Positions 37,515 through 58,167 of a stretch of 62,624 nucleotides of DNA are shown one piece after another. Below the pieces are notes generated by a model. The model was given only the letters and a program-made list of their open reading frames with translations, was not told the origin of the DNA and searched no databases. Within the stretch, counting starts at the first letter, position 1, and each line of letters begins with the position of its first letter. The DNA is from Chamaesiphon sp. GL140_3_metabinner_129_sub (GTDB taxonomy: Bacteria; Cyanobacteriota; Cyanobacteriia; Cyanobacteriales; Chamaesiphonaceae): positions 1 through 62,624 of the forward strand of contig JANYIT010000406.1 of NCBI GenBank assembly GCA_025358725.1, read 5' to 3'. Both the position numbers and the translations under genes were made by a program.

Positions 37515-37651
37515 CTGTAGGGGTGGTGCTGTCTTGTCGTTTTTTTATTCTGGGGGAACCCCATAAAAACGCCGCTTCATGCCCGCTCTCTAGGGATTAC
37601 GCTCCCATTCAAGGGTTACTATTACTGCCACAATTAAGGGTACCCCTACAG
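37515..37651. mobile_element. MITE-like element with nested hairpin
   Basis: Terminal inverted repeats CTGTAGGGG (37515-37523) and CCCCTACAG (37643-37651). The interior matches the element at 58057-58167 (ggtggtgct ... cttcatgcccg) but is interrupted at 37531-37574 by a hairpin that also sits inside the GH3 gene. No transposase inside. Confidence 0.6.
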
Positions 37652-37666
37652 GTTAATTGTACTAAT

Positions 37667-39304
37667 TTAATTCCCAAATAACTTGCCCAGCGCGATCGAT
37701 TGAGCCGCCGCCATTTGTCCATAACAGAAAACACAAGGCACTTCCGGCGGTAAAAGTGGCGCGAAATCTGCCATTAAATAAGGACTACCGTAAATCACTA
37801 ATCCCTGTAATTGTCCATTAGCTAATAATTGTTCGAGCAATTTTTTCGCCACGGATGTAATTCCCAGTCCGCCAGAAAATGGACTAGTCCGAATAAAGAG
37901 TTGCAGAATAACTGACTCTTCCGGCGCAATCGTAATTGTGGGGCTATGGCGGTTAATTAATTGGAGTTGATAGCCGAGTTTGGTGGGGATGGTAATGGCT
38001 GGAGTACTACGACTGAGGAAGGTAGTATCGAGGATTTCTTCTAGGGCGATGATATTCTTTCCGGCAGTGTCTTGTCGTTTTTTTATTCGGGGAGAACCCC
38101 CGAATAAAAACGCCGCTGGTTTTAACGGCAAAGTGCCCTGTGTGACGATCGAGTCTTGTAGCATTCCAGCCGCAACAGCCCTCGATGCTGGTTGAGCGAG
38201 CGTCATCAATGCTGCGGGTTGACTATTAACTGGCGACTGAGTGAGTCTCACACCATCCCACTCCTGAAATAACTTCTGTTTCGATCGCCAAATTCGCCCC
38301 ACACTGGCTTTAATCCGCTCGGCACTAATTAGCCCCGACTCTACTGCATGACAGACAGCCTGAATCGCAATGGCTGGATCTACAGGCATCAAAATAATGT
38401 CCGAACCAGCCGATACAGCCATGACAGGCGCATCATCTGCCCCATATCGATCGGCAATCGCCCCCATTACCAACGCATCAGTACTAATCAATCCCTCAAA
38501 ACCCAAATTATGCCGCAATTCCTCAGTTAAAATCCGTGGGGATAGTGTCGCAGGCATTTCTGGATCGAGCGCGGGAATTAGTAAATGGGCACTCATCACA
38601 CTATCCACCCCCGCCTTAATTGCCGATCGGAATGGGGGAAACTCGATCGATTCCAATCGCGCTCGATCGTGGGGAATTACAGGCAATGCCCAGTGTGAAT
38701 CTACCCCCGTATCCCCATGACCAGGAAAGTGTTTAGCACAAGTTAACACCCGATATGCCGCTGCTCCTTGAATATAGGCAGTGGCTAACTGACTGACAAT
38801 TTCAGGAGTCTCGCCAAACGATCGAATATTAATCACCGGATTAGCGGGGTTATTATTGACATCGACTACTGGAGCCAAAATCCAATTTATCCCCACGGCT
38901 AGAGCTTCCTGGGCCGTAATCGCGCCCATTTTCCGAGCATACTCGATCGCTTTTGGTAAATCTGTTTGAGCGATCGCATTTAAAGCCATTGGCGGTGCAA
39001 ACCAGGTACCCCCAGTAAATCTTTGCCCTACCCCTTCCTCGATATCGGCGGCGATGAGCAGAGGATAAGTCGCCCAGGCTTGCAACTGTTGGATTCGCAA
39101 GCTTAATTCACCCGCATTCCCACCCCAGAAAATCACCCCCCCGACACCGAGATCGCTAATCCAATGTTTGAGCGTGGCTTGATCGCATTCCCCAAATTCA
39201 GGATACTGGATTTGATGGTCAAATAAATGGCTGGAAGCTCTCACCACCACCATTTGGGCTACTTGTTGGGCAAGCGTTAGTTTGTCTAAATCGGGGAATT
39301 GCAT
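37667..39304 (-). CDS. Glycoside hydrolase family 3 protein (beta-N-acetylhexosaminidase-like)
   Basis: About 545 residues from ATG 39304 (MQFPDLDKLTLAQQVAQMVVVRASSH). GH3 N-terminal domain: PLLIAADIEEGVGQRFTGGT, ITAQEALAVGINWILAPVVDVNNNPANPVINIRSFGE, CAKHFPGHGDTGVDSHWALP (KHFPGHGxT...DSH, the NagZ signature), and GFEGLISTDALVMGAI. It probably cleaves GlcNAc-anhydromuropeptides in wall recycling. The C-terminal domain (LFIRTSPFSGG ... LVIYGSPYLM) is extra relative to minimal NagZ. An inserted repeat adds LFGGSPRIKKRQDTAGKN near residue 400. The frame is open further upstream only because of the C/G-rich repeat. Confidence 0.88.
   Translation of the reverse strand: MQFPDLDKLTLAQQVAQMVVVRASSHLFDHQIQYPEFGECDQATLKHWISDLGVGGVIFWGGNAGELSLRIQQLQAWATYPLLIAADIEEGVGQRFTGGTWFAPPMALNAIAQTDLPKAIEYARKMGAITAQEALAVGINWILAPVVDVNNNPANPVINIRSFGETPEIVSQLATAYIQGAAAYRVLTCAKHFPGHGDTGVDSHWALPVIPHDRARLESIEFPPFRSAIKAGVDSVMSAHLLIPALDPEMPATLSPRILTEELRHNLGFEGLISTDALVMGAIADRYGADDAPVMAVSAGSDIILMPVDPAIAIQAVCHAVESGLISAERIKASVGRIWRSKQKLFQEWDGVRLTQSPVNSQPAALMTLAQPASRAVAAGMLQDSIVTQGTLPLKPAAFLFGGSPRIKKRQDTAGKNIIALEEILDTTFLSRSTPAITIPTKLGYQLQLINRHSPTITIAPEESVILQLFIRTSPFSGGLGITSVAKKLLEQLLANGQLQGLVIYGSPYLMADFAPLLPPEVPCVFCYGQMAAAQSIALGKLFGN
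38069..38115 (-). repeat. Hairpin repeat inserted in the GH3 gene
   Basis: Contains tttttattcggg and cccgaataaaaa as paired arms, flanked by gtcttgtcg and cgccg. The same sequence, with a few changes, occurs at 37531-37574. It is translated in frame on the minus strand. Confidence 0.75.
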
Positions 39305-39342
39305 GGGATCTTGTGAGGTAAAGAATATGTTTGTTGAGTTGC

Positions 39343-39437
39343 GGCGTAGATCTTTACCCCACCCCAGCCCTCCCCTTATAAAGGGGAGGGAGTAAAGCCC
39401 CTCCTTTATAAGGGGGGGGTTGGGGGGGTAACACCAT
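39343..39437. repeat. C/G-rich interspersed repeat, copy 2
   Basis: Same text as copy 1 at 28192-28286 (gcgtagatctttacccca ... ggtaacaccat) with small changes. It lies just upstream of the GH3 gene and keeps that frame artificially open. Confidence 0.85.
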
Positions 39438-39549
39438 TTCAACCGAAGTACAGTAAGTGGACACTACCTAGCATCTAAGTTTTAGGCTATTTTATCCTGC
39501 ACCACTTGGATAATTGTTAAAATATGAGTAATCTTGAGCTATTGACAAG

Positions 39550-42239: not shown

Positions 42240-42277
42240 TTAGATCGATCGTGCAGGCGCAATTCTAGTGGGGTGCC

Positions 42278-42310
42278 AGATCCCCGACTTCTCCGAGAAG
42301 TCGGGGATCT
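42278..42310. repeat. REP-like palindrome, 33 nt
   Basis: AGATCCCCGACTTCT and AGAAGTCGGGGATCT arms, loop ccg. Compared with 41231-41263, the outer stem pair has changed on both sides together. Confidence 0.85.
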
Positions 42311-42354
42311 GAGGAGATCGATAATTTATGGTTTGTAAAAAAACTTATGCTAAT

Positions 42355-42687
42355 TCAGATCTGAAGTATTTCAACTATCTTATCGATCGCTTCCAATAAT
42401 TTGGTGGGAGTAATTGCTCCCGCTTTGTAAGCAATGATGGTTTGGGATGCTGTAAATATTCGGTTGGGTCTAATATTACTAGGTTGGTTTAAACCGTCGA
42501 TAGTAAAATCCTCATCTGAAATCGAGACTGCATATCGATCGGATATAGCCTGACTAGTAATTTGACAGAGAATTAGATCTTCACCTTGTAAATCGGCAAC
42601 CACCAATGCTGGACGGCGTTTTGTCTGTGTTAAGTCCGAAAATGGAAAAGGAACAACGACAACATCACCTGCTACAAATTTTGCCAT
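42355..42687 (-). CDS. MazF/PemK-family toxin (endoribonuclease)
   Basis: 110 residues: GDVVVVPFPFSDLTQTKRRPALVVAD at the N-terminus and QITSQ, NIRPNRIFTASQ further on, the typical PemK/MazF beta-barrel pattern. Family members cleave mRNA or tRNA and are blocked by an antitoxin. It overlaps the upstream antitoxin gene by 16 nt, the expected translational coupling. Confidence 0.88.
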   Translation of the reverse strand: MAKFVAGDVVVVPFPFSDLTQTKRRPALVVADLQGEDLILCQITSQAISDRYAVSISDEDFTIDGLNQPSNIRPNRIFTASQTIIAYKAGAITPTKLLEAIDKIVEILQI

Positions 42688-42866
42688 GCTGCATCCTCTT
42701 CAGGTTTGAGCCAGTCATTCTTGAGCACCAATTCACTGAGTAGCAGAGTTTCAGGAATTTCTCGTTGGTGTTTGACTTTTAGATATTGCAAATACTCCAA
42801 CACTTCAGACAGGATCGGATCGGCGGTATTTTCGGTTTCTCTCAGAATTTGCTCTCGAATACTCAT
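42672..42866 (-). CDS. Antitoxin partner of the MazF-type toxin
   Basis: 64 residues: REQILRETENTADPILSEVLEYLQYLK forms the N-terminal amphipathic helix typical of cyanobacterial antitoxins (DUF2281-like), and the acidic C-terminus (DWLKPEEDAAWQNL) is a likely toxin-binding tail. First gene of the pair. Confidence 0.75.
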   Translation of the reverse strand: MSIREQILRETENTADPILSEVLEYLQYLKVKHQREIPETLLLSELVLKNDWLKPEEDAAWQNL

Positions 42867-42947
42867 AAGGACAATTCAAGCTATCATCGATCGAATTAAT
42901 CTAAATATTTTATCATTTACTGACAGTGGTGGGGTGCTAGGGGTGCC

Positions 42948-42980
42948 AGATCCCCGACTTCTTCGAGAAGTCGGGGATCT
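42948..42980. repeat. REP-like palindrome, 33 nt, upstream of RAYT
   Basis: AGATCCCCGACTTCT and AGAAGTCGGGGATCT arms with loop tcg. It ends 38 nt before the RAYT start codon. Confidence 0.85.
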
Positions 42981-43018
42981 GAGGGAATACTAAGCTTAGT
43001 TGCTTAGATACCAATCCG

Positions 43019-43592
43019 ATGCAACGAAGACCGATGCCCCTGGAAGTTGGGAACTTTTATCATACTTACAATCGGGGAAATAATCGTCAGTTAATTTTCT
43101 TTGAACGTGATAACTATATTTATTTTCTTCAATTAGTTAGAAGATATCTAATCGCTAATTCAGTCGATATTGTTGCTTACTGTTTGATGCCAAATCATTA
43201 TCATTTTTTGGTATATCTGAGAGATGAGACTCTATCTGATGCGATGAAATTGCTCTCGCTGGCATACACAAAGGCAATTAATAAGCGGTTCAATCGTTCT
43301 GGTGTATTATTTCAGGGGCTGTTTCAAAGTATTCATGTCACGGAAACCGATTATCTGATTCATCTCTCCCGCTATATTCACCTCAATCCAGTCAAAGCAA
43401 AGCTGGTTCAACAACCGGAAGAATGGGAGTTTTCTAGCTATTCAGAATATGCACAGATTGCGATCGGGTACGCTACCTAAAACTGAATATATTAAGACAC
43501 AGATTCAAGATGAATTGGTTTATCAACAATTTCTGGCAGACCACAATCTACCTAATAGTACTGGTTTCAAAAGACTGCTGCTAGATGATTAG
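43019..43592 (+). pseudogene. REP-associated tyrosine transposase (RAYT/IS200-like Y1 family), frameshifted
   Basis: The first reading frame gives 153 residues: VGNFYHTYNRGNNRQLIFFERDNY, VDIVAYCLMPNHYHFLVYL (HxH metal motif NHYHF), AYTKAINKRFNRSGVLFQGLF, HLSRYIHLNPVKAKLVQQPEEWEFSSYSEY. It ends at a stop at 43480, but the +1 frame continues with SGTLPKTEYIKTQIQDELVY and DHNLPNSTGFKRLLLDD to a stop at 43590-43592, which is the normal C-terminus of this family. The frame changes near 43458-43466, so the gene carries a single small indel. The catalytic Tyr should lie in the first frame. Flanked by REP palindromes at 42948 and 43604. Confidence 0.85.
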
Positions 43593-43603
43593 CTTGCACA
43601 AAC

Positions 43604-43638
43604 AGATCCAAAGGCTTCTTTAAAGAAGTCGGAGATCT
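43604..43638. repeat. Degenerate REP-like palindrome downstream of RAYT
   Basis: agatccaaaggcttcttta followed by aagaagtcggagatct: the right arm is well kept, the left arm partly decayed. It starts 12 nt after the RAYT stop. Confidence 0.6.
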
Positions 43639-43735
43639 GGACTAATTATTAATAATAGATATGGTGGGCAAGTTTTAAATTGCTTTTCATTCAGTTTTTG
43701 CGATGTATTCGTCACACGACACTCTCCTCTAACAT

Positions 43736-44128
43736 CTACTCGGTAAGAGCAGTCAGTTGAACCCGAATGAGTCCCTGTTGTCTATTAGTTGCTCGCATTA
43801 CGAGTACCATCTCCCCATCATCTTTCAACTCAATTTTATAGCTAAATTTTCCTTCATCTCCGCAGTTATCAACACATCGCCAGGAAATTTTTTTAACACT
43901 ACCGCTGGGTTTCCAATTAATCGTTCTCCGAACCAAACCATCCGCTCTAAAAACATTATAGTCTTGGTCGTTCCCTTCAGCGGCACCATTGGAAGATAGA
44001 ATAATGTCCTGGGTTACCAAGTCGCTTGCTACCGCAGGATGGATCGAAAGCCCGAAGCTCAAGAAATTTGAGGAGAACACAAATGCAGCAACGAGGGATT
44101 TTATCGTTTTTTTGTTGATAAATAACAT
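43736..44128 (-). CDS. Secreted hypothetical protein
   Basis: 130 residues. A clear Sec signal peptide (KKTIKSLVAAFVFSSNFLSFG ... PAVASD) with cleavage expected after AVA near residue 35. The mature part is small, beta-rich and has one Cys pair (CVDNC) that probably forms a disulfide. Ends with IRVQLTALTE. Family not recognised. Confidence 0.6.
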   Translation of the reverse strand: MLFINKKTIKSLVAAFVFSSNFLSFGLSIHPAVASDLVTQDIILSSNGAAEGNDQDYNVFRADGLVRRTINWKPSGSVKKISWRCVDNCGDEGKFSYKIELKDDGEMVLVMRATNRQQGLIRVQLTALTE

Positions 44129-44248
44129 AGTATTTTTTTGCAGATTTCAACTTCATTTTAACGTTGCCCGAGTCGTCAGTACGAAGAAGTAACGAAAAGT
44201 AAGTAGTTGTCCTGTCAGAATATTAATGAATGTAAATGGTGACAGCAA

Positions 44249-44281
44249 AGATCCCCGACTTTTCGGAGAAGTCGGGGATCT
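44249..44281. repeat. REP-like palindrome, 33 nt, upstream of the NB-ARC gene
   Basis: AGATCCCCGACTTTT and AGAAGTCGGGGATCT arms, loop cgg. One stem position is a mismatch or wobble compared with other copies. Confidence 0.8.
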
Positions 44282-44345
44282 GGAGGGATCTGGAGGTTGC
44301 CCGATCGAGCTATACTACTTCTATCTCACTACCGATCGCCCCTAC

Positions 44346-52318: not shown

Positions 52319-52352
52319 AAAGTAGGGGCAATTCATGAATTGCCCCTACTTT
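52319..52352. terminator. 34-bp perfect palindrome, terminator of the lipoprotein gene
   Basis: Centre TTCATGAA with arms AAAGTAGGGGCAATTCA and TGAATTGCCCCTACTTT. On the minus strand the stem is followed by a T-run (ttttt), which fits a rho-independent terminator for the gene ending at 52363. The same palindrome type is common between cyanobacterial genes. Confidence 0.75.
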
Positions 52353-55275: not shown

Positions 55276-58029
55276 TCACTCCAACGCCTCATCCAAGATC
55301 GATCGCTCCTCACTCGCCAAACCCAACCACAGCCGCTCTTTCCGTTCTGGGTGTTGTTTGTAATCGATCGCTGTCTTCATCAGGCGGAAGGGTAGTTGCA
55401 TTTCAGGTCGATCTCCGAGCAGTTCTTGCCATAGTGCAAGCCACTGTTGAGCGGTATAATCGCTGATGTCGGGGGCGAGGATCTGTTTGAGGGTGCGAAC
55501 TAGGGCGGTACCGAGTTCGGTGAGGACTGAGGTTTGGATATAGGTTTGTACCAGTTCTGTCAACATGGTTTTGACGACTGGTTGAGTGAATTTAGGAATT
55601 AGGATTTCGATAAGTTCTTGGATTAATTCAGCGACATCATAAGGTCGATCTGTGAATTGATGGATGATGTTGAATGTTTGTTGCCAGGTAGTTAGCGCGG
55701 CTGAATAATTTCCGATTGAAAATTGGACAACTCCTTTATCATGCCAAGAATTGTATCTATCCAGCTTCATTTCAATTCTTCGATTATAGCAATCGATCGA
55801 CTCTAAATATTTACCCACTTTGAATAATGAATTGCCCTTATTATGCCAAGCTACATCGTTATCAGGTTTTAATTCAATCGCTCGATTGTAACTAGCTATC
55901 GCTTCCTCATATCGACCCAGTATCTCTAGAGACATACCTCGGCCATACCAAACTTCATAATAATCAGAATTAAATTCGATAGCTCGATCAAAATTAGCGA
56001 TTGCTTCCTCATATCGACCTAGTATATTTAAAGAAATACCTCGGTTATACCAAACTTCATAATAATCGGACTTAAATTCAATGGATCGATCGAAGCTGGC
56101 GATTGAGGCATCCTGTCTTCCCAAACGACGTAGTGAAATACCTCGATTATAAAAAGCCTGATAATAATCATACTTAAATTCAATTGCCCGCTCATAGCTA
56201 ACAATTGCTTCCTCATATTTTTTGAGATTAAATAGTGAATTACCTCGTTCATACCAAACTTGATGGTTGTTAAATTTATGTTTTAGGATATGGTCATAAC
56301 TGATTATTGCCTCCTGATGTTTACCTAGATTAGCTAGCGATATCGCTCTGTTAATCCAAATTTCATCGAAGTCAGAATTGAATTGAAGGACACGATCGTA
56401 ATTTATGATTGCTTCTTCATATCTACCTAATTCATCTAGCACATAGGCTTGAAGAGCCAAAATAAAAGTATTATCAATATCGATTGCCAAAGCTCGCTCG
56501 AATGCAAACAATGCTTCTGACCATTTATTGAAAAGACTTAATCTTACACCTTCTATAAACAATTCGTTAGAATTATTTGAATCAGCTTTTACAGCTTGAA
56601 ATAAAATTGCTCGAACTATATTAAATTTGCCAATATTAACCAATATACTAATCTGCTGGCATATCTCTGCACTAATTCCTCCAATTGCTTGCAACTCTGC
56701 CAACGTCTGTAAGCTTAAAGCAGTATCTTTCGATTCTAAAGAGTTTTGTAATTCCTGAATAACCACCAACAAAACCGGATCGACATCGCTCATCAATGCC
56801 AATTCTAAATGTTCATCAGATATTAACCCCCCCTTCCCTCGCAACATTGCCAACTTCTCTTGTCGCTCTGCTGGGCGATACCAAATCCGCAAAAAATCGA
56901 CAAACAACTCCACCCATTGCCCGCGATACTTCTTCACCTCCATACAGAGACGCATCAACACCTCCGTCAACTCATAAAAAGACTCCCGCCCATTCGCCCG
57001 CGCCACCACATAACCCTTATTTCGCAATTGCAGTAATTGCCCCGACACCACCCGTTGCTCAACGAAACATTGAGTCGCAATCTCCTTCACCATTACCGCT
57101 TCCCGCCTGTCTACCAAAAACTCAATAATCTTCCGCTGTTGATTGGACAATTCCTTCATTCGCGACTGATAATAAGGCGTAAGATCGTCCAGCATCTTCA
57201 TAAACGCCTGCACCAACTCATCAAGAGATTCCCGCGTAATGAATTGCGCGAACAAAGTATATACCCGTGGATTGCCACCTGCTAAATGATGTACCGCCCG
57301 AATCCGCGCTTTCCCCGCTGGAGTTTGCAGGAAATTGGCTAAATCCGCTTGCCCATCTAACTCAGCGATCTTTTGCAACATTACCGTCGCTTCTTCCCAA
57401 CTTAACGGCAATAGCGGAATCTGATTAAATAACTCAAAAAATGGCTCGTCGGGATCTTGCACCCCAGCAACTAAAGCTGGTGTCGTCGCCAAAATCGTGC
57501 AACACTGCCGCTCTTGCAAAAACGATCGAAACTTTTGTTGGCCTTTTTCTCCCAACCCCGCAAACATATCATCCAAATTCTCGACGATCAATAGCAGGGT
57601 TTTCTGCCCGATTAATTCAGTCAGTAATTGTGTCGCTAAGGTTTCCGCATCAGAGATCGATACCTGCTGAAGTTGCGCCAATAATCCCTTAGTATCGATC
57701 TTCGTCTCTTCTAACGATCGAAAAATCCGCACCACCAAATCCAACCAGGAATCAATCCCCCATTCATCTTCCCGCAACCACGCTACTATCAGCTTATCCT
57801 TCAATTCCTGATGCTGTTGGAGTCGATAGTATACCAGGGAAACTAAATGAGTTTTCCCCATCCCGCGCGCGCCAATTAGCAGGGAATGGTGTTTGGATGG
57901 AGTAGTCGCGCTGAGGATGATGCGATCGACCAAATCTTGGGCGATGTCTTCCCGTTGCACGAAAATTCGCTCTAATGTCTCAGGCGACATCAGGCTGGGT
58001 GTGAAGTTAGAGAGTAATGGTGTTGGCAT
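55276..58029 (-). CDS. P-loop ATPase with TPR repeats (STAND-like)
   Basis: About 917 residues from ATG 58029. N-terminal ATPase: SLLIGARGMGKTHLVSL (P-loop), LLLIVENLDDMF (Walker B), CTILATTPAL, then a winged-helix region (QQRKIIEFLVDRREAVMVKEIA). A TPR array follows with at least nine units, many of the form YEVWYNRGISLNILGRYEEAI or YEVWYGRGMSLEILGRYEEAI. The last 150 residues are helical. STAND-type proteins of this design are signal switches; several bacterial relatives are anti-phage sensors. No effector domain is recognised. Confidence 0.75.
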   Translation of the reverse strand: MPTPLLSNFTPSLMSPETLERIFVQREDIAQDLVDRIILSATTPSKHHSLLIGARGMGKTHLVSLVYYRLQQHQELKDKLIVAWLREDEWGIDSWLDLVVRIFRSLEETKIDTKGLLAQLQQVSISDAETLATQLLTELIGQKTLLLIVENLDDMFAGLGEKGQQKFRSFLQERQCCTILATTPALVAGVQDPDEPFFELFNQIPLLPLSWEEATVMLQKIAELDGQADLANFLQTPAGKARIRAVHHLAGGNPRVYTLFAQFITRESLDELVQAFMKMLDDLTPYYQSRMKELSNQQRKIIEFLVDRREAVMVKEIATQCFVEQRVVSGQLLQLRNKGYVVARANGRESFYELTEVLMRLCMEVKKYRGQWVELFVDFLRIWYRPAERQEKLAMLRGKGGLISDEHLELALMSDVDPVLLVVIQELQNSLESKDTALSLQTLAELQAIGGISAEICQQISILVNIGKFNIVRAILFQAVKADSNNSNELFIEGVRLSLFNKWSEALFAFERALAIDIDNTFILALQAYVLDELGRYEEAIINYDRVLQFNSDFDEIWINRAISLANLGKHQEAIISYDHILKHKFNNHQVWYERGNSLFNLKKYEEAIVSYERAIEFKYDYYQAFYNRGISLRRLGRQDASIASFDRSIEFKSDYYEVWYNRGISLNILGRYEEAIANFDRAIEFNSDYYEVWYGRGMSLEILGRYEEAIASYNRAIELKPDNDVAWHNKGNSLFKVGKYLESIDCYNRRIEMKLDRYNSWHDKGVVQFSIGNYSAALTTWQQTFNIIHQFTDRPYDVAELIQELIEILIPKFTQPVVKTMLTELVQTYIQTSVLTELGTALVRTLKQILAPDISDYTAQQWLALWQELLGDRPEMQLPFRLMKTAIDYKQHPERKERLWLGLASEERSILDEALE

Positions 58030-58056: not shown

Positions 58057-58167
58057 CTGTAGGGGCGGTGCTTCATGCCCGCCCTCTATCCACATCGATT
58101 GCACAAATCAACCAGATCGGTGCTATTTCCTAGATGGTGAGGGTACCCACAAGGGGCACCCCTACAG
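58057..58167. mobile_element. MITE-like element
   Basis: Terminal inverted repeats CTGTAGGGG (58057-58065) and CCCCTACAG (58159-58167); the interior starts cggtgcttcatgcccgccc. This is the unoccupied version of the element at 37515-37651. Confidence 0.6.

Follow-up and report, generated by a model that had tools for sequence, protein, structure and literature searches.

A tiny repeat that occurs twice in a 62,624-nt stretch of Chamaesiphon sp. DNA (the window; part of contig C13 in an assembly of 4.39 Mb and 408 contigs) was found to be a real and precisely bounded element, GTCTTG-[hairpin]-CGCT, with a consensus of 49 nt and a size range of 45-52 nt. We lean towards the view that it is a non-autonomous, REP-like hairpin element that folds as a single strand and is moved in trans by a RAYT/TnpAREP-type Y1 HUH enzyme.

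An earlier sequence-only reading of the window had proposed both copies, and both were present at the places given when the window was re-read (Table 1). Their starts agreed with that reading, while their 3' ends lay slightly beyond its limits of 37574 and 38115, because the element ends in CGCCGCT and not in CGCCG. The strong central hairpin attributed to both held for copy 2 (-22.9 kcal/mol, z -3.7) but not for copy 1 (-10.9 kcal/mol, z -0.3), which did not fold clearly better than shuffled sequences; three bases of its right arm were lost, and its hairpin had decayed. The two copies were different sub-variants of the element. As regards the features of a classical MITE, the ends GTCTTG and CGCT did not form an inverted repeat, and comparison of filled and empty sites showed no target-site duplication beyond a possible single T.

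Table 1. Positions in the window of the two element copies, their hosts and related sites.
Feature	Position (nt)	Strand	Description
Element copy 1	37531-37576	+	46 nt, stem decayed, splits a MITE at GTGCT^TCATG
Element copy 2	38069-38117	+	49 nt, intact stem, within the GH3 gene (gene on the minus strand)
Host MITE interrupted by copy 1	37515-37651		Inverted ends CTGTAGGGGT...ACCCCTACAG
Uninterrupted MITE of the same type	58057-58167		Related empty site for copy 1, GTGCT^TCATG
Uninterrupted palindrome AGTAGGGGCAATTCATGAATTGCCCCTACT	52321-52350		Second host type
GH3-type enzyme ORF	37667-39442	-	591 aa, carries copy 2

The genome-wide search suggested by the sequence-only reading was carried out with a pattern derived from the two copies, allowing up to three mismatches. 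It returned 30 near-copies in the host genome (4.39 Mb) and none with the reversed pattern as control. A strict whole-element pattern was positive in all nine Chamaesiphon genomes (9/9) and in none of 51 cyanobacterial genomes of other genera, two of which belonged to the same family as Chamaesiphon. Among named genomes, the nearest to carry the repeat were Chamaesiphon MAGs and C. polymorphus CCALA 037. No match to the element was obtained in plasmids or viral contigs, and a literature search aimed at Chamaesiphon found no earlier description of such an element in the genus.

For the identification of empty sites, the flanks of each copy were joined and the uninterrupted text was sought in the available DNA. 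Related empty sites were found for about 40 host contexts, and nearly all showed GTCTTG...CGCT as the sole addition; in the few contexts with disagreeing counts the right flank was itself another element, and one context contained an ambiguous base. This comparison, also proposed earlier for defining target and duplication length, pointed to a single boundary. In the main family all 82 distinct contexts had T immediately 5' of the element, and in 63 of them the dinucleotide was CT (77%, against 21% expected); the unit itself ended in GCT. Insertion was exactly 3' of the T, with no target duplication or at most that single T, two cases that the terminal T of the element makes indistinguishable. 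About 28 unrelated host groups were distinguished among the contexts, and the dozens of insertion spots lay in other mobile elements, in relatives of the element itself and, in frame, in one gene (GH3), which was the only recognisable gene to carry a sampled copy. A rule of targeting to hairpin loops was rejected, as two scans gave only weak enrichment: the first (loop limit 5 per side) showed no excess except for the longest stems, and in the second (limit 8) stems of at least 7 bp were present in 4 of the 28 host groups, compared with 0.9% of T sites taken at random.

Copy 1 split a MITE as had been read from the sequence, and the uninterrupted MITE in the window was its relative. The palindrome of the second host type was found filled on other contigs, as GGGGCAAT[GTCTTG...CGCT]TCATGAATTGCCCC. 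In the congener G008, the orthologous MITE lay at the same place beside the GH3 gene and was free of the copy 1 element. A different small repeat, CTTGTACTGAGCCTGTCGAAG (L156:1380-1415), was observed in this G008 MITE a few bases from the copy 1 site.

Translation of copy 2 on the minus strand gave 16 extra in-frame residues, AAFLFGGSPRIKKRQD, in agreement with the sequence-only reading. The site was empty in seven congeners (proteins 86-93% identical), which read, for example, PLKP-[T/S/V][A/S/Q]GKN where the window protein reads PLKP-AAFLFGGSPRIKKRQD-TAGKN. Despite the 49-nt element, the net gain was 48 nt, with one T missing at the junction relative to the congeners, and the frame was therefore kept. 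In the predicted GH3 structure, which has a mean pLDDT of 81, the insert (approximately residues 399-415) coincided with a low-confidence stretch (402-415), and the remainder of the model was mostly well predicted. The conserved motifs KHFPGHGDT and TDALVMGAI were intact. The enzyme presumably still works with its insert, and the 48-nt insertion is best seen as a survivor of selection.

Further hairpins with the same ends were seen among the hosts and neighbours of the element. A pattern of the ends only, with any middle, gave 18-180 matches in each Chamaesiphon genome, whereas the reversed control gave 1-7; in none of 31 genomes of other genera did the counts rise above control level. Stem pairing was assessed in 76 unique sequences from the ends-only listing, which were selected by their ends and without a folding criterion. 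Watson-Crick pairs occupied 340 of 380 inner foot positions, compared with 187 (sd 9) when the arms were re-dealt, and 28 distinct left arms were present. The first foot position was an A-T pair (40 sequences) or a T-C mismatch (32), with 4 exceptions, which defined two foot classes; only the coupling is informative at this position, because the search pattern already limits it to A/T and C/T. The same ends enclose at least 28 differing stem arms with pairing kept, and constitute a genus-specific superfamily.

Nesting was observed, with elements inserted in their relatives at a T of the same kind, and also in MITEs and other palindromic repeats. Three related arrangements were recorded separately. 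A third level of nesting, a loop insert similar to GTTGGCGGAGCCTCTCCCCCAGGAGA, was present in element copies of L012, L017, L019, L045 and L133; at L026:664-770 an element carried a second copy in opposite orientation within its own stem; and several elements, e.g., G006:C1:486275-486333 and 1123705-1123763, had tandem GTCTT units (TGTCTTGTCTTGTCTTG...) at their 5' end, perhaps produced by slippage or by partial insertions that recurred. Among the matches listed, a strand run that seemed to be all plus was judged to be a listing artefact.

The sequence-only reading would have been abandoned had no further copies existed, or had the shared text come from a single duplication event. Neither was the case: copies were many, sub-variants differed, and the sites were empty in relatives. 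Local duplication of one window copy into the other was ruled out by the different sub-variants together with the element-free state of both sites elsewhere. From the copy number, the genus-wide spread, the empty sites, the superfamily with the same ends and the nesting, it follows that the two copies were separate insertions. The proposal of a tiny element that moves by itself was therefore upheld as to movement, on the evidence of copies, precise ends, empty sites, species-specific presence and nesting, but not as to independence: 45-52 nt encode no enzyme, so mobilisation must be in trans.

As to the mobilisation step itself, we infer that the single-stranded element would fold and that the foot of its hairpin would be recognised by a Y1 HUH (RAYT/TnpAREP kind) enzyme supplied in trans. 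The enzyme would cleave at CT on both sides of the element. The GH3 copy would be a tolerated added loop, its frame preserved by the 48-nt gain. Elements of the IS200/IS605 type enter 3' of a short target and do not duplicate it; the present element likewise lay always 3' of T with at most one T duplicated, although this target is shorter than the tetra- or pentanucleotide usual for IS200/IS605. Of the known chemistries, that of Y1 HUH enzymes fits best; the CT preference agrees with it, and the TnpAREP enzymes of E. coli and Stenotrophomonas cut single-stranded hairpins at CT 5' or 3' of the structure, on one strand (PMC8266576). RAYT-type genes were present in eight of the nine Chamaesiphon genomes. 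The search for a transposase family that matches the element, suggested in the earlier reading, did not link any Y1 gene of the genus to it: three elements adjoined the 28 Y1 loci, which is approximately the chance level, and they did not form symmetric flanks. The RAYT group also occurred in related genera that lack the element, which counts against a Y1 enzyme, and G008 (77% complete) had the element and no Y1 match. For a lagging-strand bias, no clear GC-skew axis was seen in the one complete genome, where the sampled 1.2 Mb held about 13 true copies.

A RAYT-like Y1 gene in the window (43058-43381; region 42270-44285) carried a hairpin repeat of its own, CAGATCCCCGACTTC...GAAGTCGGGGATCTG, on both sides, with 8 related copies of this hairpin between 40717 and 58537. 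The same hairpin stood upstream of a Y1 gene of G003 (L203) that was 90% identical to it. Separately, a repeat of six tandem units (102-nt period, 61-74% similarity between units) was found at 55825-56468 and is probably coding.

The same mobile element could have spread by way of an RNA intermediate or with an enzyme class other than Y1, which we regard as a possible but distinctly less probable course. Fixed ends and covarying stems suit RNA equally well, and the missing linkage at the 28 Y1 loci agrees with either variant. Elhai et al. reportedly suggested in 2008 an RNA route for part of the small dispersed repeats of cyanobacteria. A search of Rfam with the window region gave no credible family match, which speaks against RNA. 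In the widest reading, any hairpin between GTCTTG and CGCT would be mobile in Chamaesiphon, as a structure-recognised and sequence-agnostic class that is served by some mobilising enzyme or an RNA route and ranks among the smallest mobile DNAs known; we hold this to be tentative and rather unlikely. Many copies shared one position in a few MITE types, so that part of the copy number may be due to hitch-hiking. Spread solely as passengers of MITEs, or by local duplication or homologous recombination between repeats, is nevertheless very improbable, given the occurrence in about 28 unrelated host groups, in a protein gene and in other hairpin elements, always with the same two ends, and given the sub-variant difference between the window copies; as a full explanation, such spread is refuted by the empty GH3 site and the non-MITE insertions. 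Equally hard to believe is a selected functional hairpin (regulatory RNA, terminator or protein-binding site) that is not mobile DNA, since its maintenance of pairing by compensation is set against two examined sites that were element-free in congeners, a copy within a protein gene, mutual nesting, the lack of an Rfam match in the region searched, and the finding that at neither of the two sites checked did the hairpin keep a conserved place next to orthologous genes in the genus.

Among known repeats the element comes closest to the small dispersed repeats (SDRs) of cyanobacteria, to REPs and to Rickettsia palindromic elements (RPEs), and it works like an SDR or a REP. Elhai et al. in 2008 reportedly described several SDR families with common structure but without common sequence, lying in minitransposons and nesting in themselves, and the SDRs of Nostoc and its relatives are said to measure 21-27 nt. 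By this definition the element resembles SDRs, being a tiny cyanobacterial repeat with precise insertion and shared secondary structure that nests in minitransposons and in itself. It is set apart from the SDR descriptions by its length of 45-52 nt, by one fixed end pair (GTCTTG/CGCT) with many stems, by its target T (mostly CT), by its restriction to Chamaesiphon and by one in-frame gene insertion. PMC4390886 places the insertion of SDR5 precisely between bases 3 and 4 of HIP1, and the Nostoc SDR work (Elhai et al. 2008) is cited in PMC4390886 and PMC3116915.

With REPs and REPINs the element shared a hairpin with a short unpaired 5' tag and a high copy number. REPs also occur inside palindromes (PMC3733652), and in-frame REP insertions are known in tnpAREP genes of cyanobacterial subclass 2.4 (PMC6006769). 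In contrast to the GTAG superfamily, the tag was GTCTTG and not GTAG or GTGG, RAYT genes were not flanked (3 elements in 28 Y1 loci), and the unit had a defined 3' end, CGCT. The CGTC-tagged palindromic repeats are tagged hairpins without a linked transposase (PMC3733652); their stems are 8-9 bp long, the tag at the stem reads CGTC, TGTC or CCTC, and the tail is CCA. The ends and stems of the present element differ from these. RPEs, cited in PMC3733652, are palindromic repeats found in frame in protein genes; by that description the likeness lies in the in-frame insertion, seen here in one sampled copy in a recognisable gene.

Most tiny palindromic repeats are known merely as repeats. Here the unit, its ends, its target and the freedom of its stem could be read from empty and filled sites, which makes the question of the mover testable with one small substrate. 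The GH3 case shows how a single small insertion can lengthen a protein by 16 residues.
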